In this document: positions 17,850-47,069 of the stretch, in pieces
Numbering within the stretch: position 1 is the first letter of the stretch
How the letters are laid out: the number at the start of each line of letters is the position of its first letter
Assembly: GCA_007692455.1 (NCBI GenBank)
Contig: RECC01000051.1
Coordinates: 1-61,253 of the forward strand
Reading direction: 5' to 3'
Source: Alkalibacterium sp.
GTDB lineage: Bacteria > Bacillota > Bacilli > Lactobacillales > Carnobacteriaceae_A
Length of the DNA stretch: 61,253 nt
Program-made: the position numbers and the translations under genes
Notes under the pieces: model-generated
What the model was told of the DNA's origin: nothing
The model's input: the letters and a program-made list of their open reading frames with translations, nothing else
The model's database searches: none

Positions 17850-17984
17850 ATGAATATCAATTATAGCAGGATAATCGGTATTCATGACAGGTTTTACAGG
17901 ATGAATCTTGATTAAATCATTATAATTGAGATTCATGCTTGGGAAGACGGAAGGAAAAGTGATTATAACAGTATAATCACTTTT
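17850..17984. repeat. Array 1: three palindromic units at an exact 51-bp pitch
   Basis: Three inverted repeats are centred at 17867.5, 17918.5 and 17969.5. Unit 1 (17850-17885) pairs ATGAATATCAATTAT with ATAATCGGTATTCAT, 13 of 15. Unit 2 (17901-17936) pairs ATGAATCTTGATTA with TAATTGAGATTCAT; its two mismatches become G-U pairs in plus-strand RNA. Unit 3 (17955-17984) is a perfect 13-bp stem, AAAAGTGATTATA, with loop ACAG. Units 1 and 3 share the core ATTATA(G/A)CAG. The array lies between the convergent ends of the transglutaminase gene and tuf, between their two terminators. I do not recognise it as a named element. Confidence 0.75.
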
Positions 17985-18083
17985 CAACCCTACTTAGAGA
18001 GACCGAATCTTAATTAAGCGAAAACAGCACGATGTACACTTGTAATTTATATTCATTTTAAGTTTTTCCCTACCAAATAAAAA
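17985..18083. other. Remainder of the convergent gap
   Basis: After array 1, about 100 A/T-rich bases remain before the tuf terminator. They hold the ten-base palindrome CTTAATTAAG at 18009-18018 but no gene or promoter that I can support. Confidence 0.5.
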
Positions 18084-18119
18084 AAAGAGTGCTTAGAAGA
18101 AAACTTCTAAGCACTCTTT
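18084..18119 (-). terminator. Rho-independent terminator of tuf
   Basis: A perfect 16-bp stem (18084-18099 with 18104-18119) around an AAAA loop, followed on the minus strand by a run of T. It lies about 30 bases after the tuf stop codon. Confidence 0.95.
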
Positions 18120-18148
18120 AAGATTAAAATCATTAGTTAAGATTGAGA

Positions 18149-19333
18149 TTACTCAACAATCTTAGTAACAACTCCAGCTCCTACAGTACGGCCACCTTCA
18201 CGGATAGTGAATTTAGTTCCGTCTTCAACAGCGATTGGAGAAATTAGAGAAACACTCATGTTAGTGTTATCGCCAGGCATAACCATTTCAGTACCTTCTG
18301 GTAACTCAACAACACCAGTTACGTCAGTTGTACGGAAAAAGAATTGTGGACGATAGTTAGTGAAGAATGGAGTGTGACGTCCACCCTCTTCTTTTGAAAG
18401 AACATATACTTCTGCATCAAATTTAGTATGCGGAGTAATTGAACCAGGTTTAGCTAAAACTTGACCACGTTCGATGTCGTCACGTGACATACCACGTAAA
18501 AGAGCACCAATGTTGTCTCCAGCTTCAGCGTAGTCTAGTAATTTACGGAACATTTCAACACCAGTAACAGTTGTTTTAGCAGTGTCTTTAATTCCGATAA
18601 CTTCAACTTCGTCTCCGACTTTAACTTCACCAGTTTCAACACGACCAGTTGCAACCGTACCACGACCAGTAATTGAGAATACGTCCTCAACTGGCATCAT
18701 GAATGGTTTAGCTGAGTCACGTTCTGGAGCAGGGATGTAGTCGTCTACAGCTTGCATTAATTCAAGAATTTTCTCTTCGTAAGCTTCGTCGCCTTCAAGA
18801 GCTTTTAAAGCTGAACCAGAAACGACAGGAATGTCGTCGCCTGGGAAGTCGTATTCGCTTAATAGGTCACGAACTTCCATTTCAACTAATTCTAGTAATT
18901 CTTCATCGTCAACCATGTCAACTTTGTTTAAGAATACTACGATATAAGGAACGCCAACCTGACGTGAAAGCAGGATGTGCTCACGAGTTTGAGGCATTGG
19001 TCCGTCAGCAGCAGAAACTACCAAGATAGCTCCGTCCATTTGAGCAGCACCAGTGATCATGTTTTTAACATAGTCCGCGTGTCCTGGGCAGTCAACGTGT
19101 GCATAGTGACGTGTATCAGTTTCGTACTCAACGTGTGAAGTAGAAATTGTGATTCCACGTTCTTTTTCTTCTGCAGCACCATCAATTGAATCGTATGCTT
19201 GAGCTTGTGCATAACCTTTCTTAGATAGTACAGTAGTAATTGCAGCTGTTAAAGTTGTTTTACCGTGGTCGACGTGTCCGATTGTTCCAATGTTCATATG
19301 CTGCTTGGAACGGTCAAATTTTTCTTTTGCCAT
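18149..19333 (-). CDS. tuf: Elongation factor Tu
   Basis: Delivers aminoacyl-tRNA to the ribosome. The GTPase motifs are GHVDHGKT (about residues 18-25), DCPGHADYV (about 80-88) and NKVD (about 135-138); beta-barrel domains 2 and 3 follow. The start is the ATG at 19331-19333 ([13 protein letters not shown]), 11 bases from AAGGAGG, giving 394 residues; an ATG three codons earlier overlaps the ribosome binding site. It has its own promoter and a terminator, though it also follows fusA in the str operon. Confidence 0.98.
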
Positions 19334-19410
19334 TTTAAACATTTCCTCCTTAGGGTTATCTTCTTTTTTTAAATAGAAAAAGATTTTTCTATTCCTATTT
19401 CCACTAATTA

Positions 19411-19439
19411 ATTATACCGATAGAACGGTATAAAATCAA
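19411..19439 (-). promoter_or_regulatory. SigA promoter of tuf, overlapped by an inverted repeat
   Basis: On the minus strand, TTGATT (19434-19439), a 17-base spacer and TATAAT (19411-19416) form a strong promoter in the fusA-tuf gap. The inverted repeat TATACCG-n6-CGGTATA (19413-19432) covers the -10 and most of the spacer, so it could be an operator. Confidence 0.75.
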
Positions 19440-19451
19440 TTCATTTGGCAA

Positions 19452-19498
19452 ATCACGGTACTCTTCCTTCTGTCATTAAATGATGTCAGAAAAAGTAC
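19452..19498 (-). terminator. Hairpin downstream of fusA
   Basis: On the minus strand, CGGTACT pairs with AGTACCG at the base, and TTCTGACAT with ATGACAGAA (one mismatch) further in, around a CATTTA loop. There is no T-run, so it may slow or process transcripts between fusA and tuf rather than end them. Confidence 0.4.
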
Positions 19499-19524
19499 CG
19501 AACTGCCGGTCAGACGGTTAGTTA

Positions 19525-21609
19525 TTACTGTCCGCCGTTTTTCTTGATGATCTCTTCAGCAATGCTCTTAGGCACTTGCTCATAGTGATCAAATTGCATT
19601 GTAAATGTTCCGCGACCTTGAGTTGCAGAACGCAATGCAGTTGCGTAACCGAACATTTCTGCTAGTGGAATGCTTCCTCTAACAACTGTTGCGTTTCCGC
19701 GTTGTTCAGAACCTTCGATATTTCCGCGACGAGCAGAAATGTGGCCCATGATGTCTCCCATGTAATCTTCAGGTACAGTGATTTCAACAGCCATCATTGG
19801 CTCAAGAATTACTGCGCCTGCTTTTTGAGCAGCATTTTTAAGTGACAGTGAAGCAGCAACTTTAAATGCAGTCTCATTTGAGTCGACATCGTGGTAAGAT
19901 CCGTCATATAGTTTAGCCTTAACGTCTACTAATGGATAACCGGCAAGAACACCGTTGTCCAGTGACGCTTCAAGACCAGATTTAACTGCTGGGATGTATT
20001 CACGTGGAACAACCCCACCAACGATTGCATCTTCGAATTCGAAACCTGCTCCTTCTTCGTTTGGAGTAAATTCAATCCATACGTGACCGAATTGACCTTT
20101 ACCACCAGACTGACGAACAAATTTACCTTCGGATTGAACCTGTTTGGTGAATGTTTCACGGTAAGATACTTGAGGTGCTCCAACGTTCGCTTCAACTTTG
20201 AACTCACGTTTCATACGGTCAACGATGATGTCCAAGTGCAGCTCACCCATACCAGCGATGATTGTTTCGCCAGTTTCGTGATCTGTTTCAGCACGGAAAG
20301 TTGGATCCTCTTCAGCAAGTTTTTGAAGAGCAATACCCATTTTATCCTGGTCTGCTTTTGATTTAGGCTCAATAGCAACCTGGATTACAGGCTCAGGGAA
20401 TTCCATTGATTCAAGGATAACTGGGTGATCCAAGTCACATAGAGTATCTCCTGTTGTTGTGTCTTTAAGACCAACGGCAGCAGCGATATCTCCAGAGAAC
20501 ACTTCTGAAATCTCTTCACGAGAGTTCGCGTGCATCTGTAGGATACGACCGACACGCTCACGCGTATCTTTTGTTGCGTTAAGGATGTAAGAACCTGATT
20601 CCAATGTACCTGAGTACACACGGAAGAAAGTCAGACGTCCAACGAACGGGTCTGTCGCTACTTTAAATGCTAAAGCTGAGAATGACTGGTCATCTCCTGC
20701 TTCAACTTTGATTGTAGTTTCTTCATCTCTTTGTTTGTGACCAACGATGGCACGAACATCTAGAGGAGATGGCAGATAATCTACAACAGCATCCAGAAGT
20801 AACTGAACACCTTTGTTCTTGAAGGCAGAACCAACAAGTACAGGGTAGAAGTCTACACTTAGAGTTGCTTTACGAATACCCGCTTTAAGCTGTTCTTCAG
20901 AGATTTCTTCTCCTTCAAGGTATTGCATCATGAGTTCTTCGTCCATGTCTGCAACGCCTTCAATAAGCTTAGTACGCCATTCTTGAGCAAGTTCCATGTG
21001 ATCTTCAGGAATGTCCTCTTCAGTAATCTCAGTACCTAAGTCATTACCGTACATGTATGCTTTCATTTTAACTAAGTCGATAATACCGACGAAGTCATCT
21101 TCAGCACCAATTGGCAATTGAATTGGGTGAGCATTAGCCTGCAGACGGTCATGCAATGTTTCGTTAGCATGCAGGAAGTCTGCACCTAATTTATCCATTT
21201 TGTTGACGAATACTACACGAGGTACGCCGTAAGTAGTTGCTTGGCGCCATACAGTTTCTGTCTGTGGTTCAACACCTGACTGTGCATCCAATACAGCAAC
21301 AGCTCCATCTAGTACACGTAATGAACGTTCTACCTCAACGGTAAAGTCCACGTGTCCAGGAGTGTCGATGATGTTAACACGGTGGTTGTTCCACTGGGCA
21401 GTTGTCGCAGCGGAAGTAATGGTAATTCCACGCTCTTGTTCCTGCTCCATCCAGTCCATTTGTGAAGCACCTTCGTGTGTTTCACCAATTTTGTGGATTC
21501 GGCCAGTGTAATAAAGGATACGCTCAGTCGTGGTAGTTTTACCAGCATCGATGTGCGCCATGATTCCGATATTACGTGTCTTCTCTAGCGGAAATTTTCT
21601 TTTAGCCAC
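19525..21609 (-). CDS. fusA: Elongation factor G
   Basis: The translocation GTPase. It has 694 residues with the GTPase motifs [10 protein letters not shown] (about 18-27), DTPGHVDFT (about 82-90) and NKMD (about 136-139). Domains III-V follow, including GMGELHLDI and the [16 protein letters not shown] segment. The start is GTG at 21607-21609, preceded by AGAGAGGTGTAA. It is the third gene of the str operon, 124 bases from rpsG. Confidence 0.98.
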
Positions 21610-21733
21610 TAATCGTTACACCTCTCTTTGATAAATTAAATCATGTTTCCATGAATTCGGATAATCTAACGGGAAGCTGGGGCAGCATTACCGCACAGAA
21701 AATTCTATGCGGCAATACCATGTGCACCAGATT

Positions 21734-22204
21734 TTACCAGCGGTAGTGAGCAAATGCTTTGTTTGCTTCAGCCATACGGTGGATTTCTTCACGTTTACGA
21801 ACAGCAGCACCAGTATTGTTTGCTGCGTCCATGATTTCTTTAGCTAATCTGTCTTCCATGGTGTTTTCACCACGTAGACGTGCATAGTTAACTAACCAGC
21901 GTAACGCTAGAGTCGTACGACGATCAGGACGTACTTCTACAGGCACTTGGTAGTTAGAACCTCCTACACGACGAGCTTTAACTTCTAATACAGGCATGAT
22001 GTTTTTCAGTGCTTGTTCAAACACTTCCATAGGGTCATTTCCTGTTTGTTCTTTAATTTGATCAAATGCATCATACAAAATCGTTGATGCTTTTCCGCGT
22101 TTACCGTCAACCATCAAACGGTTGATTAAACGGGAAACCAATTTAGAATTGTACATTGGATCTGGCAATACATCACGTTTTGTTACAGGACCTTTACGAG
22201 GCAT
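21734..22204 (-). CDS. rpsG: 30S ribosomal protein S7
   Basis: S7 organises the 3' domain of 16S rRNA and lies at the E site. It has 156 residues, [20 protein letters not shown] at the start and [14 protein letters not shown] at the end. In Escherichia coli, S7 represses the str operon by binding the rpsL-rpsG gap; here that gap is 90 bases, and no equivalent site is evident. Confidence 0.98.
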
Positions 22205-22294
22205 TCAAATTCCTCCTTTCGGGAATAGTTTTTCAGATTTTGGAAGCTGAGCTTGACGCCTCACTTCACTTTTAGTTTTAGTTTTAATTAAGAA

Positions 22295-22705
22295 TTATTT
22301 TGCTCTCTTTGTTCCGTATTTAGAACGACCTTGTTTACGGTCTGATACTCCAGCAGTATCAAGCGCACCACGAACGATGTGGTAACGTACTCCCGGCAAG
22401 TCTTTTACTCGACCACCACGGATAAGTACTACACTGTGTTCCTGCAAGTTGTGTCCTTCACCCGGAATATAAGCAGTTACTTCGATCATGTTTGATAGAC
22501 GCACACGAGCGTATTTACGTAACGCTGAGTTAGGTTTTTTAGGAGTCATTGTTCCGACACGAGTACAAACACCACGTTTCTGTGGAGAGTATACTGTTGT
22601 CTGTTTACGTTTTTGAGTGTTGTACCCTTTGTTCAACGCAGGTGACTCAGATTTACTAATTTTTGATTTACGAGGCTTACGGATTAGTTGATTCATTGTA
22701 GGCAT
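22295..22705 (-). CDS. rpsL: 30S ribosomal protein S12
   Basis: S12 is at the decoding centre. The start is the ATG at 22703-22705 ([16 protein letters not shown]), which follows GGAAGGAGGAAACATCAAT; upstream codons in frame run through the ribosome binding site. The 136 residues include [15 protein letters not shown] and [12 protein letters not shown]. The lysine in TPKKPNS, whose change gives streptomycin resistance elsewhere, is the ordinary residue. It is the first gene of the str operon. Confidence 0.97.
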
Positions 22706-22940
22706 ATTGATGTTTCCTCCTTCCATATATTCTTTGAAAATAACATTCTTCTAGGTCCACACATCCAGGTGGTTCTTTTTTTAGCAAAAAAGAATAATCG
22801 CAATGAAGCGACATCGCATTGCCTTCAAAAACCATTGATATGCAGCGTTATTCGGCTCTTATGCGCCAGTCAGAACGACTGTAAACTCTAATTGAGCTAG
22901 ACGAATCTAGAACAGGAATCTGTACACAAAAGCACCTATA
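22706..22940 (-). promoter_or_regulatory. rpsL leader
   Basis: About 235 bases of untranslated leader precede rpsL. It contains local inverted repeats, for example TCTAG...CTAGA near 22896-22912, and a run of seven T at 22775-22781 facing AAAAAAG. No match to a named riboswitch or leader was recognised, and no gene is supported. Confidence 0.45.
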
Positions 22941-22942
22941 GC

Positions 22943-22971
22943 ATAATACCATGACCATAGAGTGTTGTCAA
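22943..22971 (-). promoter_or_regulatory. Strong SigA promoter of the str operon
   Basis: On the minus strand a consensus -35 TTGACA (22966-22971), a 17-base spacer ending TGG (extended -10) and TATTAT (22943-22948). It is the only good promoter in the rpoC-rpsL gap. Confidence 0.9.
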
Positions 22972-23008
22972 CATTCTCTCGAAACTTTTATGATAAATAA
23001 AGGTGGCG

Positions 23009-23030
23009 GGAGCAGCATCTTGGCTGCTCC
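23009..23030 (-). terminator. Terminator after rpoC
   Basis: GGAGCAGC pairs with GCTGCTCC (23009-23016 and 23023-23030), 20 bases after the rpoC stop codon. The minus-strand tail CGCCACCTTTATTT is only weakly T-rich, so efficiency is uncertain. Confidence 0.65.
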
Positions 23031-23048
23031 GTCTCCTCTATCTCTATT

Positions 23049-26000
23049 TTACTCTTCAGTCTTTTCAGCAGCTGGTGAATCTTCACTGATGCTGTAGACA
23101 TTTTCGCTGACTACGCCAACTTCTTTTGGTTCCATATCATTATAGACTTTCATACCTGTTCCGGCTGGAATAGATTTACCAATAATGACATTCTCTTTCA
23201 ATCCGATCAGCTTGTCATTCTTACCGCGAATGGCAGCATCTGTCAGGACACGTGTTGTTTCCTGGAAGGATGCAGCTGACAAGAAACTGTTTGTTTCTAG
23301 TGAAGCTTTAGTAATACCCAACAGAATTGGACGACCTGTCGCCGGCAAGCCACCAGACAGAAGTGTAGATTTGTTCGCTTCCTTGAAGTCGTAGATATCT
23401 ACGAGGCTTCCTGGAAGAATGCTGGTGTCACCTGGATCCATGACTCTCACTTTTTGAAGCATCTGGCGAACCATTACTTCGATGTGTTTGTCTCCGATTT
23501 CCACCCCTTGACTTCGGTAAGCGTACTGTACTTCCTGCAGCATATAGTTCTGCAGTTTCAGCACGTTACTTACAGCAAGTAGCTGTTTCGGTTCGATAGA
23601 CCCTTCATTCAGTCCGTCTCCACGTTCCACATAGCTGCCTTCTTTAACTTTTAGACGGGCATTAATTGCCAGTGTGTACGTACGCGTATCTGTTGCACCT
23701 TTAATGGTGATTTCTTTTGTTCTCTCGCTAGGGTTTTCCTCAATGGAAATAACTTCTCCGGAAACTTCAGAGATAGTCGCAACCCCTTTAGGATTTCTTG
23801 CTTCAAATATTTCCTGAACACGCGGAAGACCTTGTGTAATATCGTCTCCGGCAACTCCACCTGTGTGGAATGTACGCATGGTCAACTGTGTTCCCGGTTC
23901 TCCGATTGACTGGGCAGCGATTGTTCCGACTGCTTCGCCAACTTCAACTTCACGGCCAGTTGCCAGGTTACGTCCATAACACTTCTTACATACACCGTGA
24001 TTGGTGTTACATGTAAAGACGGAACGGATAGTGACCTGTTCGATGCCTGAATTCACAATAACTTTAGCGATATCTTCAGTAATCAGATCGTTTTCACGTA
24101 CCAGAATGTCACCAGTTTCAGGGTGCTTAACTGTCTTACGTGCATAACGTCCGATAATACGTTCTTCAAGTCCTTCAATTTCTTCTGAACCGTCACGAAT
24201 CGTTTCCGCATCCAGACCACGTTTTGTGCCACAGTCTTCTTCACGGATAATAACGTCTTGTGCAACGTCAACTAGACGACGCGTCAAGTAACCTGAGTCG
24301 GCTGTCTTAAGGGCCGTATCAGTCATTCCTTTACGGGCACCGTGAGTAGAAATGAACATCTCTAAAACGGACAGACCTTCACGGAAGTTGGATGTAATCG
24401 GCAGTTCCATGATTCGTCCACTCGGCGCTGCCATCAGTCCACGCATACCCGCTAACTGGGTAAAGTTGGAGATGTTACCACGAGCTCCGGAATCACTCAT
24501 CATGAAGATATTGTTGTGGTGATCAAGTGTATTCATCAAGTGATTCTGGATGATGTCTTTCGTCTTCGTCCAGACTTCAATAACAGCAGTATAACGCTCT
24601 TCTTCAGTAATCAGACCACGACGGTGTGACGCATTGATGCGGTCGACCTGATTGTGAGCCTGCTCAAGGATTTCCCCTTTTTCTTCAAGATGGGAAATAT
24701 CAGCAATACCTACTGTAATACCGGACTTAGTAGAATACTTGTAACCAAGGTTTTTCATTTTATCCAGCATCTTAGATGTTTCAGTTACTTGGAATCGTTT
24801 AAAGACTTCGGCAATGACATTACTGAAGTTTTTCTTCTTAAATGGTGAAACCAATTCAGCATCCTGAATGTGTTTCACAATATCTGTTCCATATGGTACG
24901 AAGTACTTGTCAGGTGTCTGCTTTTCCAGATTTGCCTGAGTCGGTTCGTTCAAGTATGGAAACTCCGGAGGCATGATTTCGTTAAAAATCAGCTTACCGA
25001 CAGTCGTTACCAGATATTTGCCTTTCTGCCATTCTGTAAATGGCTTGTTCGGCAAGGATGACGTATGCACGGCAATTCTTGAATGCAAGTGTACATAGCC
25101 TGTCTGATAAGCCTGTAGTGCTTCAGCGTGGCTGGAGAAAATCATACCTTCTCCGATTTTACCTTTATCTTCCATAGTCAGGTAATAGTTACCTAAAACC
25201 ATATCCTGGGAAGGTGTTACAACTGGCTTACCATCTTTAGGATTCAAGATGTTCTGTGCACCCAGCATTAAAATGCGGGCTTCAGCTTGTGCTTCATCAC
25301 TTAAAGGAACGTGAACAGCCATTTGGTCTCCATCAAAGTCAGCGTTATACGCTTCACATACTAACGGGTGAAGACGGATTGCTTTTCCTTCGACAAGTAC
25401 CGGTTCAAATGCCTGAATACCTAATCGGTGAAGAGTAGGTGCACGGTTAAGAAGAACTGGGTGTTCGCGGATAACGTCCTGGAGTACTGCCCAGACCTCG
25501 TCATCCATGCGCTCAACTTTACGTTTCGCATTTTTGATGTTATTGGCAATTTCTCTGGCAACCAGTTCTCTCATGACAAATGGTTTAAACAGTTCGATAG
25601 CCATTTCTTTCGGCAGTCCACACTGGTACATTTTCAGACTTGGTCCAACTACGATAACCGAACGACCGGAATAGTCGACACGTTTACCCAGCAAGTTCTG
25701 ACGGAAACGTCCCTGCTTCCCTTTCAGCATGTGTGAAAGAGATTTAAGCGGTCGGTTACCCGGTCCGGTAACTGCACGTCCACGACGGCCGTTATCGACT
25801 AATGCATCGACAGCTTCCTGCAGCATACGCTTCTCATTTTGAACAATGATGTGCGGTGCATTTAGATCAAGCAGTCGTTTCAGACGGTTGTTACGGTTGA
25901 TGACTCGACGGTATAAGTCGTTCAAGTCACTTGTTGCGAAACGTCCACCTTCAAGCTGTACCATCGGTCTCAACTCTGGAGGAATAATTGGCACAACATC

Positions 26001-31446: not shown

Positions 31447-31628
31447 AGTTTAAATCTGTTTTGCATGCTGAACTTGAAAAATTGGCCTGCTGAATGGAGT
31501 TTGCACCTTTTTCAGACCTTCAAACTTTACCGAATGGAAAGCCCGTCTAGTTTGGGCTATCTCCGTAAAAGGAAACTTAAATTTTTCAATTAAAATTTGA
31601 AGTTTAAGAGAATTGGAAAGTTTAAACT
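31447..31628. repeat. Array 3: four units with AGTTT/AAACT boxes at a 51-bp pitch
   Basis: AGTTT occurs at 31447, 31498, 31549 and 31601, and its complement (A/G)AACT at 31470, 31522, 31573 and 31624; both boxes keep a 51-52 base pitch over four units. Because the two boxes alternate, each can pair with either neighbour. The best hairpin is at 31573-31605, where AAACTTAAATTTT pairs with a 14-base right arm (one bulge) around TCAATT. The interior sequence is otherwise poorly conserved. The array fills the gap from the fumC stop codon to the rsmC promoter; no gene is supported there. Confidence 0.6.
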
Positions 31629-37987: not shown

Positions 37988-38014
37988 ACTGACAACCCTT
38001 TCTCCTTCGACCTT

Positions 38015-39208: not shown

Positions 39209-39343
39209 TTTAAGTGTCCTTTCTTTTTCTGTCGCAGATTCTGATAAGCAAAAGTGACACGTCACTTCAAAGAACAATTTTATCAAATATCAGTCCATAT
39301 AACTACACAATCTTAAAAATGACACAAAATAGTAGAATGCAAA

Positions 39344-39378
39344 AAATCCCTCTGTCACATAATCGGACAGAGGGATTT
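39344..39378 (-). terminator. Terminator after rplL
   Basis: AAATCCCTCTGTC pairs with GACAGAGGGATTT (39344-39356 and 39366-39378), followed on the minus strand by a run of six T. It ends the rplJ-rplL transcript, 25 bases after rplL. Confidence 0.95.
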
Positions 39379-39403
39379 ATTAGCTGTTCTTTAGAAAAGT
39401 TAA

Positions 39404-39769
39404 TTACTTAACTTCTACTGAAGCTCCAGCTTCTTCTAATTTAGCTTTCAATTCTTCAGCTTCGTCTTTAGAAACGCCTTCTTTAACTGCTGAAGGTGCT
39501 CCGTCTACTAGTGATTTAGCTTCTTTCAAACCAAGACCAGTAGCTTCACGAACTGCTTTGATTACTTTGATTTTAGCTGATCCAGCAGATGTTAATTCTA
39601 CTGTAAATTCAGTTTGCTCTGCTTCTGCTGCTGCTCCAGCTCCTGCTGCTGCTACTGGTGCTGCTGCTTCAACGCCGAACTCTTCTTCAATTGCGCTTAC
39701 TAAGTCGTTTAATTCAACAACTGTTGACTCTTTCAAGTCAGCAATGATTTTTTCAATATCTAATGCCAT
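39404..39769 (-). CDS. rplL: 50S ribosomal protein L7/L12
   Basis: The stalk protein that recruits elongation GTPases. It has 121 residues. The dimerisation domain includes [19 protein letters not shown], the hinge is alanine-rich ([14 protein letters not shown]), and the C-terminal domain carries [19 protein letters not shown]. It lies 83 bases from rplJ and is followed by a terminator. Confidence 0.98.
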
Positions 39770-39852
39770 TTTTGTTTTCCTCCATTTAATTTGGTTTTGT
39801 TTTTTAACAGGCTGCGCTTAAGCACAGTTCACTGTTAGTCGAATCGACTGCT

Positions 39853-40362
39853 TTATGCAGCTTCTTCTTCTTCTTTTTTCTCTGCAACTGCTTTGACTGC
39901 CAACGCAGTGTTTCGCATAGGTGCCTGTAGTACAGATAATAGCATTGAAAGTAGGCCTTCGCGGCTTGGTAGTGTAGCAATTTTGTTGATTTGTTCAACA
40001 GTTGCAACTTTACCTTCCAATACGCCACCTTTAATTTCAAGTGCTTCTGCGTCTTTCGCAAATTCTGCGATGATTTTAGCAGGTGCTACGACTTCTTCGT
40101 TACTGAATGCTACAGCTGTAGGTCCTTTGAAGACATCTACTAATTCTGATAATTCAGCTGCTTCTGCCGCGCGACGTAACATGGTGTTTTTCAATACGCG
40201 CATTTCGATACCTGCGTCACGTAATTGCTTACGTAATTCAGTTACTTGGCCTACTGTCAAACCACGGTAGTCTACAACTACTACTGCTTGTGCTTCTTGA
40301 AATTTAGAAGTAAGATCTTTAACAATCTCTTCTTTTTTCGCGATAACATGCTCTTTACTCAT
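39853..40362 (-). CDS. rplJ: 50S ribosomal protein L10
   Basis: L10 anchors L7/L12 dimers on the ribosome. The start is the ATG at 40360-40362 ([17 protein letters not shown]), after CAGGAGGTGAAACATCA, giving 169 residues; the frame is open upstream but reads into the leader. [20 protein letters not shown] is the family signature. The Lys/Glu-rich end KKEEEEAA is normal. Confidence 0.97.
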
Positions 40363-40630
40363 TGATGTTTCACCTCCTGATCGATTGAAATGAGGATTCA
40401 ACTTTATACCATTTTCCTCAACGAAATTTATGGAATAAAAAAACCCCATGTCACCGTAGACATAGAGGGAGTGTAAATTGATTGTTCATCACTTTATCCT
40501 CGGTATGATATTAAGGCACCAGGCCACATACTGTCTTCGGTATTATCAAGCTGTCTGTCCGGTAATTAGCTTACCGCCATTCAGCTCTCATTCATCAATG
40601 CATATTCAATTAAAGTTAATTCCTTAACCT
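40363..40630 (-). promoter_or_regulatory. L10 leader with internal terminator
   Basis: About 270 bases of leader precede rplJ, in the place of the L10 leader of Firmicutes, which L10 (with L7/L12) binds to lower its own expression. Near its 3' end (40437-40470), GTCTACGGTGAC closes a hairpin with CCTC/GGGG pairing below, followed on the minus strand by seven T, the form of an attenuator. Upstream, several hairpins can form around 40500-40600. I rely on position and architecture; the full consensus was not checked. Confidence 0.7.
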
Positions 40631-40665
40631 GCACTATTATAGCAAGCTATTCAGTGCAGGTCAAG
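40623..40665 (-). promoter_or_regulatory. SigA promoter of rplJL embedded in an inverted repeat
   Basis: On the minus strand, TTGACC (40659-40664), 17 bases and TATAAT (40636-40641) form a near-consensus promoter. CTTGACCTGCACT and AGTGCAGGTTAAG, complementary at 12 of 13 positions, lie at 40653-40665 and 40623-40635, so the -35 box is inside one arm and the transcription start region inside the other. Confidence 0.85.
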
Positions 40666-40679
40666 AAAAATTAAATTTT

Positions 40680-41375
40680 TTATTTAAGAACTGTGCTTGT
40701 GTCTACTTTAACACCAGGTCCGAAAGTACTTGCAACTGCCATGTTCTTGATGTAAACACCTTTAGAACTTGCAGGCTTAGCTTTCACAATTACGTCGTGA
40801 AGAGCTGCCAAGTTTTCTTTCAATTTTTCGATATCAAATGATACTTTACCAATTGGCACGTGTACGTTTGACTGACGGTCAACACGGTATGTTACCTGTC
40901 CAGCTTTAATATCATTAACAGCTTTAGCTACATCAGGTGTAACTGTTCCTGTTTTAGGGTTAGGCATTAGGCCTTTAGGTCCTAAGACACGTCCCAATTT
41001 ACCTACTTCAGCCATCATATCCGGTGCAGCAACAACTACGTCGAAGTCTAACCATCCACCTTGAACTTTTTCTACAAGGTCGCTGTCTCCTACGAAATCT
41101 GCTCCTGCTTCTTCAGCAGCTTTAGCAGCGTCGCCTTTAGCAAATACGATTACAGTCTGAGTTTTACCAGTTCCGTGCGGCAATACCATTGCTCCACGAA
41201 TCTGCTGATCAGCTTGTTTAGGGTCTACTCCTAATCGGTAAGCTACTTCAATAGTAGCGTCGAATCCGGCGTAGTCGATTTCTTTAACTAATTCCAATGC
41301 TTCAGTTGCATCATATTGTTTCTCGCGGTCTACTTTTTCCAAAGCAGCTACGAATTTTTTACTCTTTTTCGCCAT
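40680..41375 (-). CDS. rplA: 50S ribosomal protein L1
   Basis: L1 forms the mobile stalk that moves deacylated tRNA to the E site. It has 231 residues; [20 protein letters not shown] is the family signature near residue 130. L1 represses the rplK-rplA operon in Escherichia coli. Here rplA lies 146 bases from rplK, with a CTCCGC/GCGGAG-closed segment in the gap (41423-41494) that could be a control element. Confidence 0.98.
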
Positions 41376-41521
41376 TATATTTCCTCCTTAGTGTGGTATT
41401 AGCGGTTTAACCTCCCACTTGATCTCCGCAAAAGCGTAAAAACAGATGTCCTTACGGCTTGGCCGAACAAGTTCCCTTATTCAGCTGGTCGCGGAGGCAG
41501 CAAGCAATGGGGGCAAATTCA

Positions 41522-41947
41522 TTATCCTTCGACAGTGAATCCCATACTGCGTGCTGTACCTTCAACCATGCGCATAGCTGCTTCTACATCAGCTGCGTTT
41601 AGGTCTTCCATTTTTGTTTCTGCAATTTCTCTAACTTGAGCGCTAGTTACAGATGCCACTTTTTTAGTGTTTGGTTCGCCTGAACCAGACTCAACGCCAG
41701 CTGCTTTTTTAAGCAATACTGCTGCAGGTGGAGTTTTTGTGATAAATGTAAATGAACGGTCTTCGTATACTGAGATAACTACCGGAATAATCATTCCTGC
41801 TTGATCTGCAGTACGAGCGTTAAATTCTTTACAGAATCCCATAATGTTTACTTGCGCTTGTCCTAGTGCAGGTCCTACTGGGGGAGCCGGATTAGCTTTC
41901 CCTGCGGGTATCTGCAGTTTCACGACGTTTACAACTTTTTTTGCCAC
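41522..41947 (-). CDS. rplK: 50S ribosomal protein L11
   Basis: L11 is part of the GTPase-associated centre and is needed for the RelA-dependent stringent response. It has 141 residues. The proline-rich N-terminus [20 protein letters not shown] and the C-terminal rRNA-binding domain are both intact. It lies about 150 bases after nusG, with its own likely promoter. Confidence 0.98.
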
Positions 41948-42059
41948 GAGACATACCTCCTTGACTTTAGTCCGTGAGTGGTTAAATGAGGTTTCAGTTT
42001 TCCTCTCCCACTATAAATCATACTTCTTATACACATAAGCATACAAGACGCACTGACTT

Positions 42060-42088
42060 AGTGTACCACTTCTGATTGCTTTCCGCAA
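42060..42088 (-). promoter_or_regulatory. SigA promoter of rplK-rplA
   Basis: On the minus strand, TTGCGG (42083-42088), 17 bases ending TGG and TACACT (42060-42065), immediately after the nusG stop codon. A second possibility, TTGTAT with TATGAT at 18-base spacing, lies just downstream. Confidence 0.65.
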
Positions 42089-42095
42089 TACTTTT

Positions 42096-42650
42096 TTAGT
42101 CGTCCAGTTTGGAAATCTGGTTGTAATCCAGCTCGGCATTGGTTTCGCGTCCGAACATTTCCACAGATGCCTTGATTTTTCCTTTGTCGCCTTCAAGTTC
42201 AGTGACTGTACCTTCCATGCCTGCGAACGCGCCGCCGACAATCTTGATACGTTCGCCGACTTCAACATCCATCTGTACTTTACGCGGGTTGATGCCCATA
42301 CTGCGCAGAATCTGATCCACTTCTTCAGGCAGTAAAGGTGATGGTTTGCTTCCGGCACCGTGAGAGCCGACAAAGCCAGTTACGCCGGGAGTATTTCTAA
42401 CAATATACCAGGCATCGTCTGACATGATCATTTCTACCAAAACGTATCCTGGGAAAATTTTCTCTGTGGTTGTATCAACTTTTCCGTCTTTTTCCTGAGT
42501 GGTTTCTTCTTCAGGAATCAATACCTGCAGAATGTTGTCTTCCATTTTCATACTGTTGGCACGGGACTCCAAGTTTTGCTTTACTTTGTTCTCATAACCT
42601 GAATAGGTGTGAAGAACGTACCATGCTTTTGCTGTTTCTAATTCGCTCAT
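42096..42650 (-). CDS. nusG: Transcription termination/antitermination protein NusG
   Basis: Binds RNA polymerase and affects pausing and termination. It has 184 residues; the NGN domain includes AWYVLHTYSGYENKVKQNL and PGYVLVEMIMSDDAWYIVRN, split over two strands, and the KOW domain VGERIKIVGGAFAGMEGTV begins near residue 128. A hairpin and T-run directly precede the gene. Confidence 0.98.
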   Translation of the reverse strand: MSELETAKAWYVLHTYSGYENKVKQNLESRANSMKMEDNILQVLIPEEETTQEKDGKVDTTTEKIFPGYVLVEMIMSDDAWYIVRNTPGVTGFVGSHGAGSKPSPLLPEEVDQILRSMGINPRKVQMDVEVGERIKIVGGAFAGMEGTVTELEGDKGKIKASVEMFGRETNAELDYNQISKLDD

Positions 42651-42681
42651 GTGTAATAATCTCCTTTTTTGTCTGTAATAA

Positions 42682-42717
42682 AAAAACCTTCTTCCATTGT
42701 CTGGAAGAAAGGTTTTT
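42682..42717 (-). terminator. Terminator-like hairpin directly upstream of nusG
   Basis: On the minus strand, AAAAACCTTTCTTCCA pairs with TGGAAGAAGGTTTTT (one bulge) around GACAA, followed by seven T. It lies 30 bases before the nusG start, so it is either the secE terminator or an attenuator within the nusG leader. Confidence 0.85.
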
Positions 42718-42755
42718 CGCCTGTTCTCGCTACGTAGTATAGCACGTAGGGGCTG

Positions 42756-42784
42756 TTAAATCTACTCTTATTACTGTTTGTCAA
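42756..42784 (-). promoter_or_regulatory. Candidate promoter upstream of nusG
   Basis: On the minus strand a consensus TTGACA (42779-42784, overlapping the secE stop codon), 17 bases and ATTTAA (42756-42761). A TATACT at 42735-42740 inside the inverted repeat CTACGT/ACGTAG is an alternative -10 without a clear -35. Confidence 0.5.
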
Positions 42785-42957
42785 ATTAAGTTCAATAAAA
42801 AGGTAATAACTGAGTCGGCTGCATAGAAGAAGACACCGAAGAATGCCATTACACCAAAAACGGTAGCGGTATTCTTTTTCATAGCTTCTTTAGTCGGCCA
42901 TGTTGTTTCGCTTAATTCGTACTTCACTTCTCCAAAAAACTTTTTCACTTTATTCAT
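42781..42957 (-). CDS. secE: Preprotein translocase subunit SecE
   Basis: The single-span clamp around SecY. Translation gives 58 residues: MNKVKKFFGEVKYELSETTW, then PTKEAMKKNTATV, one membrane segment (VFGVMAFFGVFFYAADSVI) and a short tail. The motif with TTWPTK is the family signature. The start ATG is at 42955-42957, with GAGGAGTTTCC upstream. It lies between rpmG and nusG, the usual order. Confidence 0.96.
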   Translation of the reverse strand: MNKVKKFFGEVKYELSETTWPTKEAMKKNTATVFGVMAFFGVFFYAADSVITFLLNLI

Positions 42958-43015
42958 GGGAAACTCCTCTCGTTACAAGGTAATTAATCGGTCACTCTTT
43001 AACGGCTGCAGTGGA

Positions 43016-43165
43016 TTACTTTGTTTCTCTGTGCAGCGTGTGTGTTTTACAGTATCGGCAATATTTTTTTACTTCCAGACGTTCTGTACGGATTTTTGCG
43101 CCTACTTCTTTAGTATAGTTACGCGATCCGCATTCTGTACAGGCCAGGGCCAGCTTCTTTTTCAT
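43016..43165 (-). CDS. rpmG: 50S ribosomal protein L33, zinc type
   Basis: The 49 residues begin [17 protein letters not shown] and contain [14 protein letters not shown] at the end, so both CxxC pairs of the zinc form are present. The ATG is at 43163-43165, after GAGGAAACAATCC. Another L33 copy, common in Firmicutes, may exist elsewhere. Confidence 0.96.
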
Positions 43166-43217
43166 TGGATTGTTTCCTCACTTCAGTTTCATCTGACATT
43201 ATTTCATAGTCTTCATT

Positions 43218-43246
43218 ACTTTACCATTATCTGAAAACACTGTCAA
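43218..43246 (-). promoter_or_regulatory. Strong SigA promoter of rpmG-secE
   Basis: On the minus strand, TTGACA (43241-43246), 17 bases ending TGG and TAAAGT (43218-43223). It begins just downstream of the apbE stop codon. Confidence 0.88.
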
Positions 43247-43252
43247 ATCGGC

Positions 43253-44311
43253 TTAATTGACCTTTTCAAAGTCATTGTGGTTAATTTCCACGTCTTCTGT
43301 AATGCCTTCTGACACAAACACTTCTAGATCATTAGTCGTATAGATGACTTCGACACCCTCAAGACCATTGATATAGTCCAGTCCTTCTTCAACGCCGAGT
43401 GAAAAGGCGATATTCGCAATCGCATCCGCATCCATGGCATTGTCTGCTATGATACTTATTCCAGAGATATTATTCTCGAAAGGATAGCCTGTGTCCGGGT
43501 TCATCAAGTGATGGTACTCGTCATCTCCATCTCGGACCAGTCGCTCGTAGATACCTGATGTGACGATTGCACGGTCTGATACAGGAACCATCCCGATAAT
43601 ATCGCCTCGGTCACCGTAAGGATTTTGAATGCCGACATTCCACGGGTCGTCTTCTCCGCGGGTGCTGTTGCCAACCACAACGATGTCTCCACCTAAATCA
43701 ACAATAGCCGTGTTGACGCCTTCTTCAACTAATACACGAGCTGCTTCATCGGTAATGTACCCTTTGGCAATCGCACCTAAATCCAGCACCATGCCTTCTT
43801 CCTGCAGATAGATCGTCTGATTATCTTCGTCCAGTTCAACCAGCTGGTAGTCCACAACTGCTACTGCTGCGTCCAGTTCATCCTGATCGGGTACGGCTGC
43901 ATATTCCTGACCAATTCCCCATAAGGATGTCACGGCACCGATTGTCGGATCAAAGCTGCCGCCTGATTCTTCTGCAAAGTGTAATGCCCGTTCCATAACG
44001 TAAAAAACTTCTTCAGACACTTCTACCGGCTCAATGCCCGCCTGGCGGTTAACTTCTGAAATTTCTGAATCTGGATTCTGCATCGAAAACCATTCATCCA
44101 GTTCTTTCACCCGGTCAAAGGCTTTATCCATTGCGTCTTCACCGTCTTGATTAAAGACACGCATATTCGCTACTGTTCCCAGTAGAAATTCTGTGCGTTC
44201 ATAAGGCTGTTCAGCCAATCCTCTTGAGTCGTCATCGTTACATGCAAATAAGGTAAGTGATAATACAGGTATCATAAGTGATAATACTTTTTTCTTGTTA
44301 CTGGTAAACAT
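43253..44311 (-). CDS. apbE: FAD:protein FMN transferase, lipoprotein (ApbE family)
   Basis: Attaches FMN covalently to threonine in extracytoplasmic proteins. It has 352 residues. A lipoprotein signal peptide ends in LTLFAC, with the lipidated cysteine at residue 24. The catalytic domain contains LGTVANMRVF, GSFDPTIGAVTSLWG, LDLGAIAKGYITDEA and NTAIVDLGGDIVVVG, followed by the magnesium-binding region DAMDADAIANIAFSLG. It is divergent from the Gx-transporter gene. In Gram-positive bacteria, ApbE often serves extracellular electron transfer or flavin-based reductases; the acceptor protein is not in this window. Confidence 0.93.
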   Translation of the reverse strand: MFTSNKKKVLSLMIPVLSLTLFACNDDDSRGLAEQPYERTEFLLGTVANMRVFNQDGEDAMDKAFDRVKELDEWFSMQNPDSEISEVNRQAGIEPVEVSEEVFYVMERALHFAEESGGSFDPTIGAVTSLWGIGQEYAAVPDQDELDAAVAVVDYQLVELDEDNQTIYLQEEGMVLDLGAIAKGYITDEAARVLVEEGVNTAIVDLGGDIVVVGNSTRGEDDPWNVGIQNPYGDRGDIIGMVPVSDRAIVTSGIYERLVRDGDDEYHHLMNPDTGYPFENNISGISIIADNAMDADAIANIAFSLGVEEGLDYINGLEGVEVIYTTNDLEVFVSEGITEDVEINHNDFEKVN

Positions 44312-44486
44312 AATCAGTTCCCTTCCCTTTCTTTTTCTCTGTACATCTTACAGTAAAAGTGTTACTCTGTCTATGTTTTCACAAGATTAGATTCATTATA
44401 AAATTGCTTTAATGATTATAGCTTGATGAGCCTTTTTGTGCGACAATACTCTATAGAAGAAACCACTCCAGAAAAGAAGGATTCCA
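44312..44486. promoter_or_regulatory. Divergent apbE / Gx-transporter intergenic region
   Basis: The 175-base gap between two divergent genes is A/T-rich and must hold both promoters. A TATAAT lies on the minus strand at 44395-44400, and the plus strand has TTGATG with AATACT at 16-base spacing near 44423-44450. Neither is strong, and no operator is obvious. Confidence 0.4.
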
Positions 44487-45062
44487 ATGAATCGTACCCA
44501 AAAAATGATCTATATATCCCTGCTTTCCGCTCAAGCCGTCATACTCGGTTTGGTCGAACGCAGCATACCATTCCCTTTTGCTTTCGCACCTGGTGCCAAG
44601 CTCGGGGTGGCCAACTTAATTATCATTGTCGCCATTTACACACTCCCATTCAAAGACAGTCTGAAAGTCGTCATCATGCGGCTTTTAATGACCACTCTCT
44701 TAGGCGGGACCATCTCCACCTTTATGTACAGTTTTGCCGGAGCCATGCTGAGTTATGCCGGCATGCTTATTGTTAAATTTGTCGGTGGAAAACGCGTGTC
44801 AATTATCGGCGTCAGCGCAACCGGCGGAATTCTCCATAACTTGGGGCAACTGCTGGTCGCCAGTACCATTGCCCAGACCTGGACGGTACTCCTGTATCTG
44901 CCGGTCCTTTCCTTTTTCGGGATACTCTCCGGAATCGGCATCGGCATCGCAGCCAACTTCCTGATGGCCCACGTCACGACCATCCAGCGCTTCAAAAAGG
45001 CGCATGAGGAAAAAAAAAGCAGTAAAAGCAAACATAAGCACGTAGCCAATACACTGGTATAA
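44487..45062 (+). CDS. Gx transporter family protein (heptaprenyl diphosphate synthase component I family)
   Basis: A 191-residue membrane protein with about five hydrophobic segments and the family motif PFAFAPGAKLGVANLI (GxKLGxANI type), near residue 30. It is often annotated as heptaprenyl diphosphate synthase component I, but it looks like the substrate-binding subunits of ECF transporters. ApbE neighbours in other Firmicutes suggest a role in flavin supply outside the cell. The C-terminal tail is lysine-rich (KKSSKSKHKH). AAGAAGGATTCCA precedes the ATG. Function by context only. Confidence 0.8.
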   Translation: MNRTQKMIYISLLSAQAVILGLVERSIPFPFAFAPGAKLGVANLIIIVAIYTLPFKDSLKVVIMRLLMTTLLGGTISTFMYSFAGAMLSYAGMLIVKFVGGKRVSIIGVSATGGILHNLGQLLVASTIAQTWTVLLYLPVLSFFGILSGIGIGIAANFLMAHVTTIQRFKKAHEEKKSSKSKHKHVANTLV

Positions 45063-45069
45063 ACCAATC

Positions 45070-45113
45070 GCCCTGTTTCCGGAGATTTACAACTTCGGAA
45101 GCGGGGTTTTTTT
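45070..45113 (+). terminator. Terminator after the Gx-transporter gene
   Basis: CCCTGTTTCCG pairs imperfectly with CGGAAGCGGGG around about 14 bases, followed by seven T on the plus strand, eight bases after the stop codon. Confidence 0.75.
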
Positions 45114-45248
45114 CATAAAAAAAGCAAAGTGACAGATACCATCACTTCACCTCTTTATGTTTCTTCTCATTAGTCTTTTCCCTTTACAAATTATTGAAAC
45201 TTTTCACTGATCATTCTATTACTCGAACATATGCCCTATGTTAAACGA

Positions 45249-45875
45249 TTATAGAAATAGCTTTCTATATTTTTCGGTACATCGATGTTTAGCATTCAAT
45301 ACCTTGCTTCGCGTACAGTTTAATTTTTCAGCAATATCATCATACGAATAGCCTAAATAACAGTTCAGGCATACCTCTTTTTCAAAAGTAGATAAGCGTG
45401 ACAGATATTCATCCACAGTCTCATTAATGATTGGACTGTCTTCCGGTTGTACAGAACGCGAAAAACCGGCCAGCTGATAGCCGTTTTCTTCTATGACACC
45501 CTCCAGAGACAATGACTCCCGTATTGCACGCCTTTTCACTGCATTATTCCACCGTATCAGCCGGTGGAAGTGATTATCAATACACAGACATACATACTGA
45601 TTGAAATTCATGCCTTTATTGCATTCGTATTTCTGACTCGCCTTGACTATTACAAGACAGGCTTCCTGATATAAATCATCTCTTTCGTACCCCTTTATGT
45701 ATCGTCGATACGTAGTGCGCTTAATAATGGGCTGACACTGTTCGAACAGTACGGGATAAAGCTGTGATTCTCCAGACTGGATTCTTTGAATAAGGCTGTC
45801 GGCTACAGGCTCGCTGAAATCTTTAAACGTTTTCTTCTCATTAGCAGTAATCTTTTCTTGGGTAGTCGTCTGCAT
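45249..45875 (-). CDS. Sigma-70 family factor, SigH/ComX-like
   Basis: An alternative sigma factor of 208 residues. Region 2 is recognisable at ERDDLYQEACLVIVKASQKY, with the polymerase-binding core, and region 4 at LGYSYDDIAEKLNCTRSKVL, a helix-turn-helix. Its place between yacP and rpmG is that of sigH in Bacillus, and streptococcal ComX and lactic SigX belong to the same branch, so control of competence genes is a reasonable guess. The start is the ATG at 45873-45875, eight bases after AAGGAG. Confidence 0.85.
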   Translation of the reverse strand: MQTTTQEKITANEKKTFKDFSEPVADSLIQRIQSGESQLYPVLFEQCQPIIKRTTYRRYIKGYERDDLYQEACLVIVKASQKYECNKGMNFNQYVCLCIDNHFHRLIRWNNAVKRRAIRESLSLEGVIEENGYQLAGFSRSVQPEDSPIINETVDEYLSRLSTFEKEVCLNCYLGYSYDDIAEKLNCTRSKVLNAKHRCTEKYRKLFL

Positions 45876-45949
45876 CCTTTCTCTCCTTCTGTAGATTGTA
45901 TTTTCAATTACAGAGCAGAGCAATTATTGTAGTAGTAGTTTGCATCACA

Positions 45950-45995
45950 TGAAAGCGTTTCACTTATTATACTACCCGTTTATCTCAATAGTCAT
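45950..45995 (-). promoter_or_regulatory. Promoter and operator-like palindrome of the sigma factor gene
   Basis: On the minus strand, ATGACT (45990-45995), 18 bases and a perfect TATAAT (45966-45971). The palindrome TGAAA-GCG-TTTCA (45950-45962) lies at the expected transcription start. It resembles a cre site but is one base too short in the centre, so a different repressor is possible. Confidence 0.55.
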
Positions 45996-46105
45996 TAATA
46001 TTTTTTAGATTGTGAGATTATTCTCATGAAAATATGCTAATAAATTCAAAAAAACCGCATAGAATATGAATTCTCATATAAAATACGATTTTTATGTTAA
46101 CTTAT

Positions 46106-46648
46106 TCACTTTTCTTTTTCATACTTCTTTTCAATCATGTCAACATACAGCTGCTTGAGTAAATCCTTGTCCTTTTCCTTCAAAGGGGAGTTGCGACTTT
46201 TATTCTGCATCCGGTAAAGGGCACTGTCGATGGCGATTTTCTTCTTGGCCGTCTGGATGTCCTTGTAGAGTTCATTGGCAGACTTTCGAGTCGCGCCTCT
46301 CTGGAAGATAATCCACTGTTCGGCCAGATCTGATGTAGCAACCTGTACATGCGTAATTAATAGATTTTCTTCCCCGACTGCTTTTTCAATGTAGCTGTCA
46401 GCAGTTTCGCCTTCACTGGTAAAGATAACGGCCACATTATACTTGTCATAACGCTTGGACAGGCCCGGTACCAGCTGCGCATCAAAGACGATACGCACTT
46501 CAATGCCTTCAAAGTTGGCGTAATTGCTCAACTCATGCAGCAAGGCATCACGGGCATCCGCTATCTTGTCCTGCCGCTTCAGCTTGACCAGTTCCGGCCA
46601 CGCCCCAATCATATTGTAACCATCCACAAAAAGCAGTTCCTTTTTCAC
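46106..46648 (-). CDS. NYN-domain endoribonuclease (YacP / Rae1 family)
   Basis: Bacillus Rae1 cleaves mRNA in the ribosomal A site. The 180-residue protein has the NYN/PIN active-site start LLFVDGYNMIGAWPEL with Asp near residue 9, then RIVFDAQLVPG and FTSEGETADSYIEKAV, which supply further acidic residues, and a basic C-terminus. It follows a 467-base gap that holds array 2, although in other genomes it usually follows rlmB directly. Confidence 0.92.
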   Translation of the reverse strand: MKKELLFVDGYNMIGAWPELVKLKRQDKIADARDALLHELSNYANFEGIEVRIVFDAQLVPGLSKRYDKYNVAVIFTSEGETADSYIEKAVGEENLLITHVQVATSDLAEQWIIFQRGATRKSANELYKDIQTAKKKIAIDSALYRMQNKSRNSPLKEKDKDLLKQLYVDMIEKKYEKEK

Positions 46649-46704
46649 TTGACTCCCCTCCTTTCAGAAAAGTTAAATGTTCAGCAGTTAATATCAAAAA
46701 ATTT

Positions 46705-47069
46705 AAGTAACCAGCTTCTCTAGACGCTTAATTGTCTGAACTCGCTAGTGAGTATGGTTTGAGTTCGGATAATAACAACCGTATTGACGGAAGTCACTCG
46801 CTGATTTTATTTGAGTAACCGGTTAAAGCCTCTTATCATGGCAACTCACCCACAGATTAGACGTGAGTACGGGCAATAAGCAGCTTCTTGACGGAACTCA
46901 AACGCATGCTTCCTTCCAGTCACCGCAATAACTCTTCTATTGCCGTGACTCGGCAGTCCCTTCGCTTGCAGTTACGGTAATAAGGCTTTATTCACACTAC
47001 TCGCAGAGAATATTGAAGCGAGTACCTTTAATACCAATGGAATAATCATTACGCCCAACGGCGCTTAAG
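46705..47069. repeat. Array 2: seven degenerate tandem units at a 52-bp pitch
   Basis: Units begin at 46705, 46761, 46813, 46865, 46917, 46969 and 47020 (steps of 56, 52, 52, 52, 52 and 51). Each starts (G/C)AGT, or AAGT in the first, most carry AATAA at bases 11-15, and all but the last end their palindromic part about 35 bases in with ACTC. Units 46761 and 46865 are alike at about 30 of 41 positions. Each unit can fold; the best is 46918-46950, where AGTCACCGCAATA pairs with TATTGCCGTGACT at 12 of 13. The array fills the gap between the rlmB terminator and yacP. No gene is supported there. Confidence 0.75.

Follow-up and report, generated by a model that had tools for sequence, protein, structure and literature searches.

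Intergenic palindromic arrays of Alkalibacterium and related bacteria form a family by pitch and symmetry, not by sequence

Palindromic arrays in the window

The window, i.e., the whole stretch of 61,253 nucleotides analyzed here (contig RECC01000051.1 of assembly GCA_007692455.1; handle G000:C23), belongs to a draft genome of an Alkalibacterium species of 2.05 Mb and 89.5% completeness. Among named genomes, the YacP protein of this genome is closest to that of Alkalibacterium, followed by that of Marinilactibacillus. Three gaps between genes in the window carry rows of imperfect palindromes, designated A1, A2 and A3. Together with the arrays of related genomes described below, they form a family by their pitch, which is distributed far more narrowly than expected by chance, and not by their sequence. 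In the window, A1 and A2 are strong arrays and A3 is weak, though above shuffled sequence at pitches 51 and 52.

Array A1 (17850-17984) lies between two convergent genes, one for a transglutaminase-core protein on its left (15362..17776, plus strand, PF01841) and tuf, encoding EF-Tu, on its right (18149..19342, minus strand, TIGR00485). Each gene has a terminator-like hairpin at its 3' side (17788..17819, plus strand, and 18084..18119, minus strand, respectively), and A1 lies beyond both hairpins. It consists of three imperfect palindromes with centers at 17867.5, 17918.5 and 17969.5, i.e., with steps of exactly 51. Unit 1, a 36-bp imperfect palindrome (17850..17885), and unit 2 (17901..17936) carry ATGAAT arms, whereas unit 3 (17955..17984) reads AAAAGTG and has arms, AAAAGTGATTATA/TATAATCACTTTT, unlike those of units 1 and 2, at unchanged pitch.

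Array A2 (around 46760-47055) has yacP (NYN domain, 46106..46648, minus strand, PF05991) as its downstream neighbor and rlmB (47116..47961, minus strand, TIGR00186) as its upstream neighbor. It comprises five clear units and one weak unit with a pitch of 52, and in this register 10, 8, 11, 12, 7 and 5 of 15 inner positions are paired in units 1 to 6, respectively. Unit 1 (46760..46799) begins with TGAGT and has AGTCA where ACTCA is expected in the 52 register. Units 2 (46812..46848) and 3 (46864..46900) both read TGAGT-N27-ACTCA, unit 4 (46918..46950) is the best palindrome of the array, and it is followed by unit 5 (46970..47001) and the weak unit 6 (47020..47055). When A2 was compared with its own genome by BLAST, no second copy was found, just short matches besides A2 itself. 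Array A3 (31447-31628), neighbored by fumC and a gene for an MTS-domain methyltransferase, has four weak units (31447..31474, with AGTTT...AACT; 31498..31526; 31549..31577; 31601..31628). AGT begins at 31447, 31498, 31549 and 31601 and ACT at 31472, 31524, 31575 and 31626, so that the steps of both are 51 or 52.

Arrays were scored by folding n units at pitch P about each possible dyad and taking the excess of column composition over background. When the window was scanned with four units at pitches of 30-80, keeping the best three places per pitch, A1 scored 40.8 at pitch 51 and A2 scored 43.4 at pitch 52. The remaining listed places scored below 13, except for a coding-type repeat at 39.4-39.6 kb. 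This repeat (39400-39670), with a period in multiples of three, is judged by eye to be likely an alanine-rich L7/L12 stretch, a source of false positives for scans of this kind. The score of A3, 12.4, is weak; it was matched by none of 300 shuffles at pitch 51/52 and by 1 of 100 shuffles over any pitch of 46-57. None of the three arrays appeared in the output of Tandem Repeats Finder, and the best 12 places by a chain score using palindromes only included A1 and did not include A2.

A preliminary description of the window had proposed that the three arrays share a pitch of 51-52, and A1 and A2 a palindromic geometry as well, with arms that differ between arrays. The scan bears this out, less firmly for A3. 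A core shared by A1 and A2, A(T/A)TA(T/A)AnCAG, had been proposed as well and is not confirmed: it fits at 17860, but at 46875 the sequence is AATAAGCAG, which is shorter by one base, and the majority of the other units lack it. Finally, arms were described as kept within an array, a rule that is not strict, as unit 3 of A1 shows.

Pitch in this and related genomes

Among the first 900,188 b scanned, six matches with a score of at least 20 were free of any open frame, three with pitch 51 and three with pitch 52; they correspond to five places, one array having been read twice. The wide scan covered 157 loci and 2,779,451 b, a total that is slightly double-counted because some 10-kb named loci overlap other stretches, at pitches of 24-90 with three units and a minimal score of 22. 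It gave 67 seeds, of which 58 do not overlap long open frames. The pitch was 51, 52 or 53 in 44 of these 58 non-coding seeds (20, 22 and 2 seeds, respectively), and 51 or 52 in three of the nine seeds that overlap long open frames. The preliminary description regarded the arrays as always intergenic; this applies to most, since 3 of the 47 seeds with pitch 51-53 overlap long open frames. It had also named two outcomes that would count against a family, a search without further arrays and a pitch distribution no narrower than chance. Both points were examined, and further arrays were found in this genome and in its relatives, at a pitch far narrower than chance.

Refinement of the arrays yielded 149 spacings, 59 of 51, 83 of 52 and 7 of 53, from seeds at a fixed pitch of 50-53 only, by which indel-rich arrays would be missed. 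The free-gap pattern TGAGT-N(13-41)-ACTCA-N(3-29)-TGAGT does not carry this fixed-pitch bias. Among the places listed, it returned pitch 51 or 52 in 88 of 100 for genome G001, 36 of 37 for G004 and 3 of 13 for G003, which has few arrays of the exact TGAGT/ACTCA motif. Places were listed for these three genomes and five further genomes were covered as counts; overlapping places on both strands count separately, and a reversed-pattern control was uninformative because it also fits the arrays. Three units were present in 23 of 26 pitch-51 arrays vs. 8 of 24 pitch-52 arrays, three being also the detection minimum. As for redundancy among loci, L039 was excluded from the wide scan through the register analysis as the same place as L103, L165 and L195 duplicate the window and L100, and L032 and L243:6535 are one place that entered the counts as two.

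Outside 51-53, the remaining 14 non-coding seeds had pitches of 24, 41, 54, 61 (two, at one locus), 67, 78 (two), 80, 82 and 84 (four). Seven of them (54, 78 and 84) appeared coding-like by eye, being L7/L12-like or Ser/Glu-rich, which leaves six loci. In four of these six, the unit measures 40-41 or 61, close to four or six helical turns, a number of loci too small to build on. Non-coding tandem arrays with pitches of 41, 41 and 40, near four turns, occur at L228:3268-3500, L236:8020-8150 and L237:18052-18500 in two other genera of the family, the one in L236 being palindromic. Genome G035 has a non-coding array of pitch 61-62 that was refined to 17 units (L248:3206-4200), and G010 has one of pitch 67 with a repeated TTGAGATCGACCGAGCTGAAGCGAG part (L137:7593). 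At L108:11358-11664 in G006, a pitch-51 array has nearly identical units and is open in several frames; this could be either a coding repeat or an array of recent origin.

Arms and register

Units of one array have their arms in common, whereas different arrays mostly do not. A short A[C/G]T step is nevertheless locked to the register in most arrays: it lies exactly 14 bases from the dyad center in 36 of 52 array entries (36 of 51 distinct ones), i.e., in 18 of 22 with pitch 51 and 18 of 30 with pitch 52-53. Beyond offset 14 and offsets 10-11, no offset has more than three entries. The peaks at 10 and 11 represent the same sites, because the other dyad center is 25.5 or 26 bases away. Register information amounted to 4.35 bits, compared to 1.73 ± 0.10 (maximum 1.91) in 60 register randomizations that kept the content of each array. 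The A[C/G]T steps alternate at distances of about 30 and 21-22 bases, and ACTCA is present in pitch-52 entries of several genomes and arm families. Of the window arrays, A2 has the step at offset 14, A1 does not, and A3 has AGT/ACT in another register.

Two further observations concern arm sequences. Arrays on contigs C1, C6, C7 and C9 of G001 have unlike arms (TGAGTTCGACAT vs. AGTGCA.ACTCA) and a poor inner palindrome, while TGAGT/ACTCA and the pitch are kept. In G005, inspection by eye revealed a recurrent palindrome, ATTTTTCGCC..GGCGAAAAAT, with variants, adjoining several arrays (L128, around 5215-5245, 6250-6290, 10470-10500 and 17850-17880); some of these palindromes stand in divergent gaps.

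Distribution, gene context and inheritance

The pattern TGAGT-N27-ACTCA-N15-TGAGT was sought with at most one mismatch on both strands of 395 genomes of the order, with a gap-swapped pattern as control. The 12 genomes of the own genus gave 146 matches vs. 6 for the control and the five genomes of genus g9 gave 133 vs. 0, whereas the other 378 genomes gave 52 vs. about 90. At least one match was present in 10 of 12 own-genus genomes and 4 of 5 g9 genomes. The TGAGT/ACTCA variant is thus almost wholly confined to two genera.

Arrays with other arms also occur outside these counts. In G027, a member of another family, 120 kb contained seeds of pitch 52 (eight) and 53 (two), some being parts of one array; one of its arm families gave 147 forward and 151 reverse matches genome-wide (control, 1 and 0), and the loops of its arrays resemble each other. 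G015 has one array, and G048 has one seed of pitch 51 that lacks the A[C/G]T step. The sampled stretches of G012-G014, G016-G019, G028, G032, G035, G036 and G042, 20-80 kb each, contained no 51/52 seed; G019 has five TGAGT/ACTCA matches outside its sampled stretch. Searches of open-licence literature in PubMed Central brought up no recognized description of such arrays, including under Alkalibacterium combined with inverted repeats.

By type of gap, 24 of 43 arrays are codirectional, 14 convergent and 5 divergent. Convergent gaps account for 14 of 43 arrays, three of them in one gap, compared to 10 of 114 array-free gaps. Several gene neighborhoods recur. Arrays with unlike arms follow tuf in G000, G010, G001 and G008 (in G011 the contig ends there), and arrays follow tyrS in G000, G002, G004 and G005. 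The rlmB-yacP gap measures 467 b in G000 and 560 b in G011, both with arrays of unlike arms and the same pitch, vs. 33-96 b in the other ten congeners; G027 has a 52-pitch array in this gap too (L032).

Some arrays are orthologous. One array after tyrS aligns between G002 and G005 at 79% identity with 20 gap columns and has, by eye, about seven units. G005, G002 and G004 have in common an array of pitch 51 next to a gene with a GH16 domain; between G005 and G002 its identity is 69% in the array vs. 88% in the following gap. The findings show that arrays are inherited, that arms change, and that arm families are common to loci of one genome. In one case, an array is identical at 153 of 153 bases between G001 and G002 (L293:1504-1660 and its counterpart in L294; array plus flanks 99-100%) within a surrounding block of 90% identity, which points to recent conversion or transfer.

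Sequence change and pairing within arrays

Four orthologous arrays with 12 units were compared between G005 and G001 (three arrays) or G008 (one array). Identity was 313/360 in arms (87%), 89/168 in loops (53%) and 44/72 in gaps (61%). Three of the four arrays differ by 0-2 inserted or deleted bases, and the fourth has an insertion of 42-44 bases in G001 and G002. Among 139 paired arm positions, 19 were changed on one side and none on both, a pattern that half-sites, unlike stems, should show. The absence of two-sided changes shows only that compensation is not needed. The preliminary suggestion of compensatory arm change thus finds no support in the arms of orthologous arrays, and the pairing excess within arrays, given below, is small. 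Two-sided 'restored' changes counted over whole units, which had seemed to favour compensation, vanished with arm positions alone.

In 24 arrays from codirectional gaps, mismatches in otherwise paired columns were counted on the coding strand. They comprised 75 G-T, 68 A-C and 176 other pairs, i.e., no favoring of G-T and no RNA-strand bias was found in this set, which gives no support to the proposal of a family of processed RNAs.

Comparison with known repeat systems

Of the systems compared, REP/BIME elements are closest in anatomy and location. They are described as palindromes of 20-40 bp with GTAG/CGTC tags, frequently clustered with short spacers, in intergenic regions and mostly in unidirectional and convergent gaps (PMC3733652). 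The present arrays likewise stand mostly in codirectional and convergent gaps. They differ by having no sequence common between arrays, a pitch of 51/52, and the A[C/G]T step instead of a tag; by eye, the 52-entry consensus has no common GTAG/CGTC foot. The associated Y1 transposase (RAYT, PF01797, E ≤ 1e-5) was found in 20 of 60 genomes, including the array-bearing congeners G002, G003, G005, G009 and G010, and in neither G000, at its 89.5% completeness, nor seven other array-bearing genomes (G001, G006, G008, G011, G015, G021 and G027). The preliminary view that the arrays are neither REP/BIME nor BOX therefore holds for REP/BIME in the own genome, where this transposase was not found, and tentatively for BOX by anatomy. 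BOX elements of streptococci are dispersed and stem-loop forming, with inner modules in tandem and variable number (PMC3049150). They have boxA/boxC ends and sequence-defined modules, in contrast to the array-specific sequence found here, a comparison that did not extend to an alignment with pneumococcal modules.

The boxB module has a length near 45. Neisserial NIME/dRS3 elements are intergenic arrays with units bounded by short inverted repeats, a likeness to the present arrays; their dRS3 sequence is conserved, which is a difference, and we know of no fixed pitch in them. Tyrosine recombinase sites of the lox/dif type and integron attC sites have inverted arms around a core of 5-8 bp, attC conserving just short end triplets. 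By geometry alone, the units fit such sites, i.e., inverted arms around a short core. They differ from lox/dif/attC in being tandem at a fixed pitch with several per locus, and no recombinase is linked to them. CRISPR arrays differ as well, because here units diverge and loops change by substitution, unlike near-identical repeats with unrelated spacers; this comparison did not extend to a search for cas genes.

TIGR arrays are described with alternating repeats of 8-12 nt and 9-nt spacers in a 36-nt unit (PMC12045711). They have a constant unit size per locus and locus-specific repeats, some with variable palindromes, in which they resemble the present arrays. Here, the unit is 51 or 52, arms are about 15, no guide-like spacers were seen and no Nop protein was found.

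Interpretation

We tentatively favor, at a little short of an even chance, that each array is a row of inverted half-sites on double-stranded DNA, to which a putative dimeric protein would bind cooperatively. Each unit would consist of an arm of about 15, a core of 5-6, an inverted arm of about 15 and a spacer of about 15, i.e., 51 or 52 bp in total. This is close to five turns of B-DNA, by which successive dimers could come to lie on one face, and the A[C/G]T steps about three and two turns apart suggest a common side of the helix for all half-sites. One dimer may bind per unit, with contacts between neighbors, and dimers could assemble along an array or bridge arrays. To recognize an array, the protein would need the spacing and the dyad, plus A[C/G]T at 14 bases from the center in most arrays. 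The rest of the arm would be alike within an array because units duplicate from one another, and would drift between arrays. The preference for convergent gaps fits a role at gene ends, possibly insulation of transcription units or absorption of supercoiling, and a role in chromosome folding is also conceivable. The nucleoid-protein platform named in the preliminary description belongs to the same class of explanation, with protein binding as its conjectural part.

Several points weigh against this explanation. No binding protein is nominated, the arms are so unlike between arrays that one sequence-reading protein is hard to picture, and the helical argument is arithmetic only. A[C/G]T is missing at offset 14 in 16 of 52 entries, including A1, and the entries are not independent: arrays of G005 and G027 share arm families, and with one duplicate and several arm-sharing families the effective number is smaller. 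With 0.65 two-sided arm changes expected by chance, a count of zero is in itself weak evidence. Pairing within arrays (1732 of 4266 cells) exceeds that of shuffles (1666 ± 18; maximum of 500, 1711), which would suit a hairpin too. Moreover, loops of two arrays are identical at 46 of 84 positions compared to 476 of 588 in 150-base flanks, a difference left unexplained by a constraint on spacing alone.

The main rival is that the units, with 34-37 bp in an arm-core-arm arrangement, are non-autonomous mobile or recombination sites, resembling tyrosine recombinase sites or miniature transposon ends, on which an enzyme acts in trans and whose units duplicate. We consider this unlikely, yet serious. 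The 15-6-15 geometry of arm, core and arm in G005, the dispersal of the G027 arm family in both orientations, the placement of 14 of 15 copies of one G005 arm family within 61-102 kb of contig C28, and the rlmB-yacP gaps, short in ten congeners and long in G000 and G011, all agree with mobility, and a DarT/DarG-like module of G005 (L128:7125-9401), which G001 and G002 lack at this position, has its right end about 30 bases from an array. This module is not flanked by two arrays, however, several species carry arrays inherited at fixed positions, and the Y1 transposase is lacking in the eight array-bearing genomes named above, a search that did not extend to other transposases or recombinases. 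If arrays are transcribed hairpins instead, kept for RNA structure as 3' UTR (untranslated region) elements or small RNAs, the palindromic units are accounted for, as are the terminator-like palindromes that adjoin several G005 arrays by eye (2 of 44 arrays with a strict finder, too strict to be useful) and the array of G005, G002 and G004 that by eye stands between a stop codon and hairpins. We regard this as improbable: the coding strand has no G-T excess, arms lack compensatory changes, A1 lies outside both adjacent terminator-like hairpins, the arrays gave no Rfam match at or above a family's gathering score, and RNA has no need of a fixed 51/52 pitch.

Neutral tandem duplication, by which hairpin slippage creates arrays that then decay, is disfavored and carries a small probability. 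Unit number does vary, with by eye seemingly one unit in G007 vs. four or five in its relative G010, but slippage would not be expected to give the same pitch in arrays of unrelated sequence, a register-locked step, or arms kept better than loops. That the arrays are dual-spacer guide arrays like those of TIGR-Tas is the least probable of all and largely refuted. The stem-loop arrays with variable palindromes, locus-specific repeats and constant spacer size described for TIGR (PMC12045711) speak for it; the Nop domain (PF01798, E ≤ 0.001) was found in 0 of 41 genomes vs. 4 of 14 control genomes, although a divergent Tas could escape the model. Further differences are the unit size of 51-52 and not 36, the location beside housekeeping genes, and the loops of G027, which are alike and not unrelated spacers.

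Returning to the row of half-sites, a bolder form of this explanation is that the arrays represent a new class of bacterial chromosomal element in which length is conserved and sequence is not. A protein to which almost any arm is acceptable would then read lineage-wide half-site arrays with a five-turn pitch, each locus having its own 'dialect', as a bacterial analogue of phased nucleoprotein arrays that structures or insulates gene ends. We put this forward as a possibility, doubtful at present. For now, we class the arrays with the intergenic palindromic repeat arrays, of which they would be a variant, though they may be a kind of their own. The compared dispersed repeats of bacteria are families by sequence, while these arrays are a family by spacing and symmetry, and sequence searches therefore miss them. 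If a protein reads them, they would constitute a chromosome-organizing or insulating system in which every locus has its dialect; if they owe their spread to an enzyme, they would be a mobile element whose geometry persists as its sequence is lost. In both cases, culturable species allow pitch, arms and loops to be changed one at a time.

As a minor observation, a ribosomal protein L10 leader (RF00557) scored above the gathering score at positions 40428-40558 of the window.

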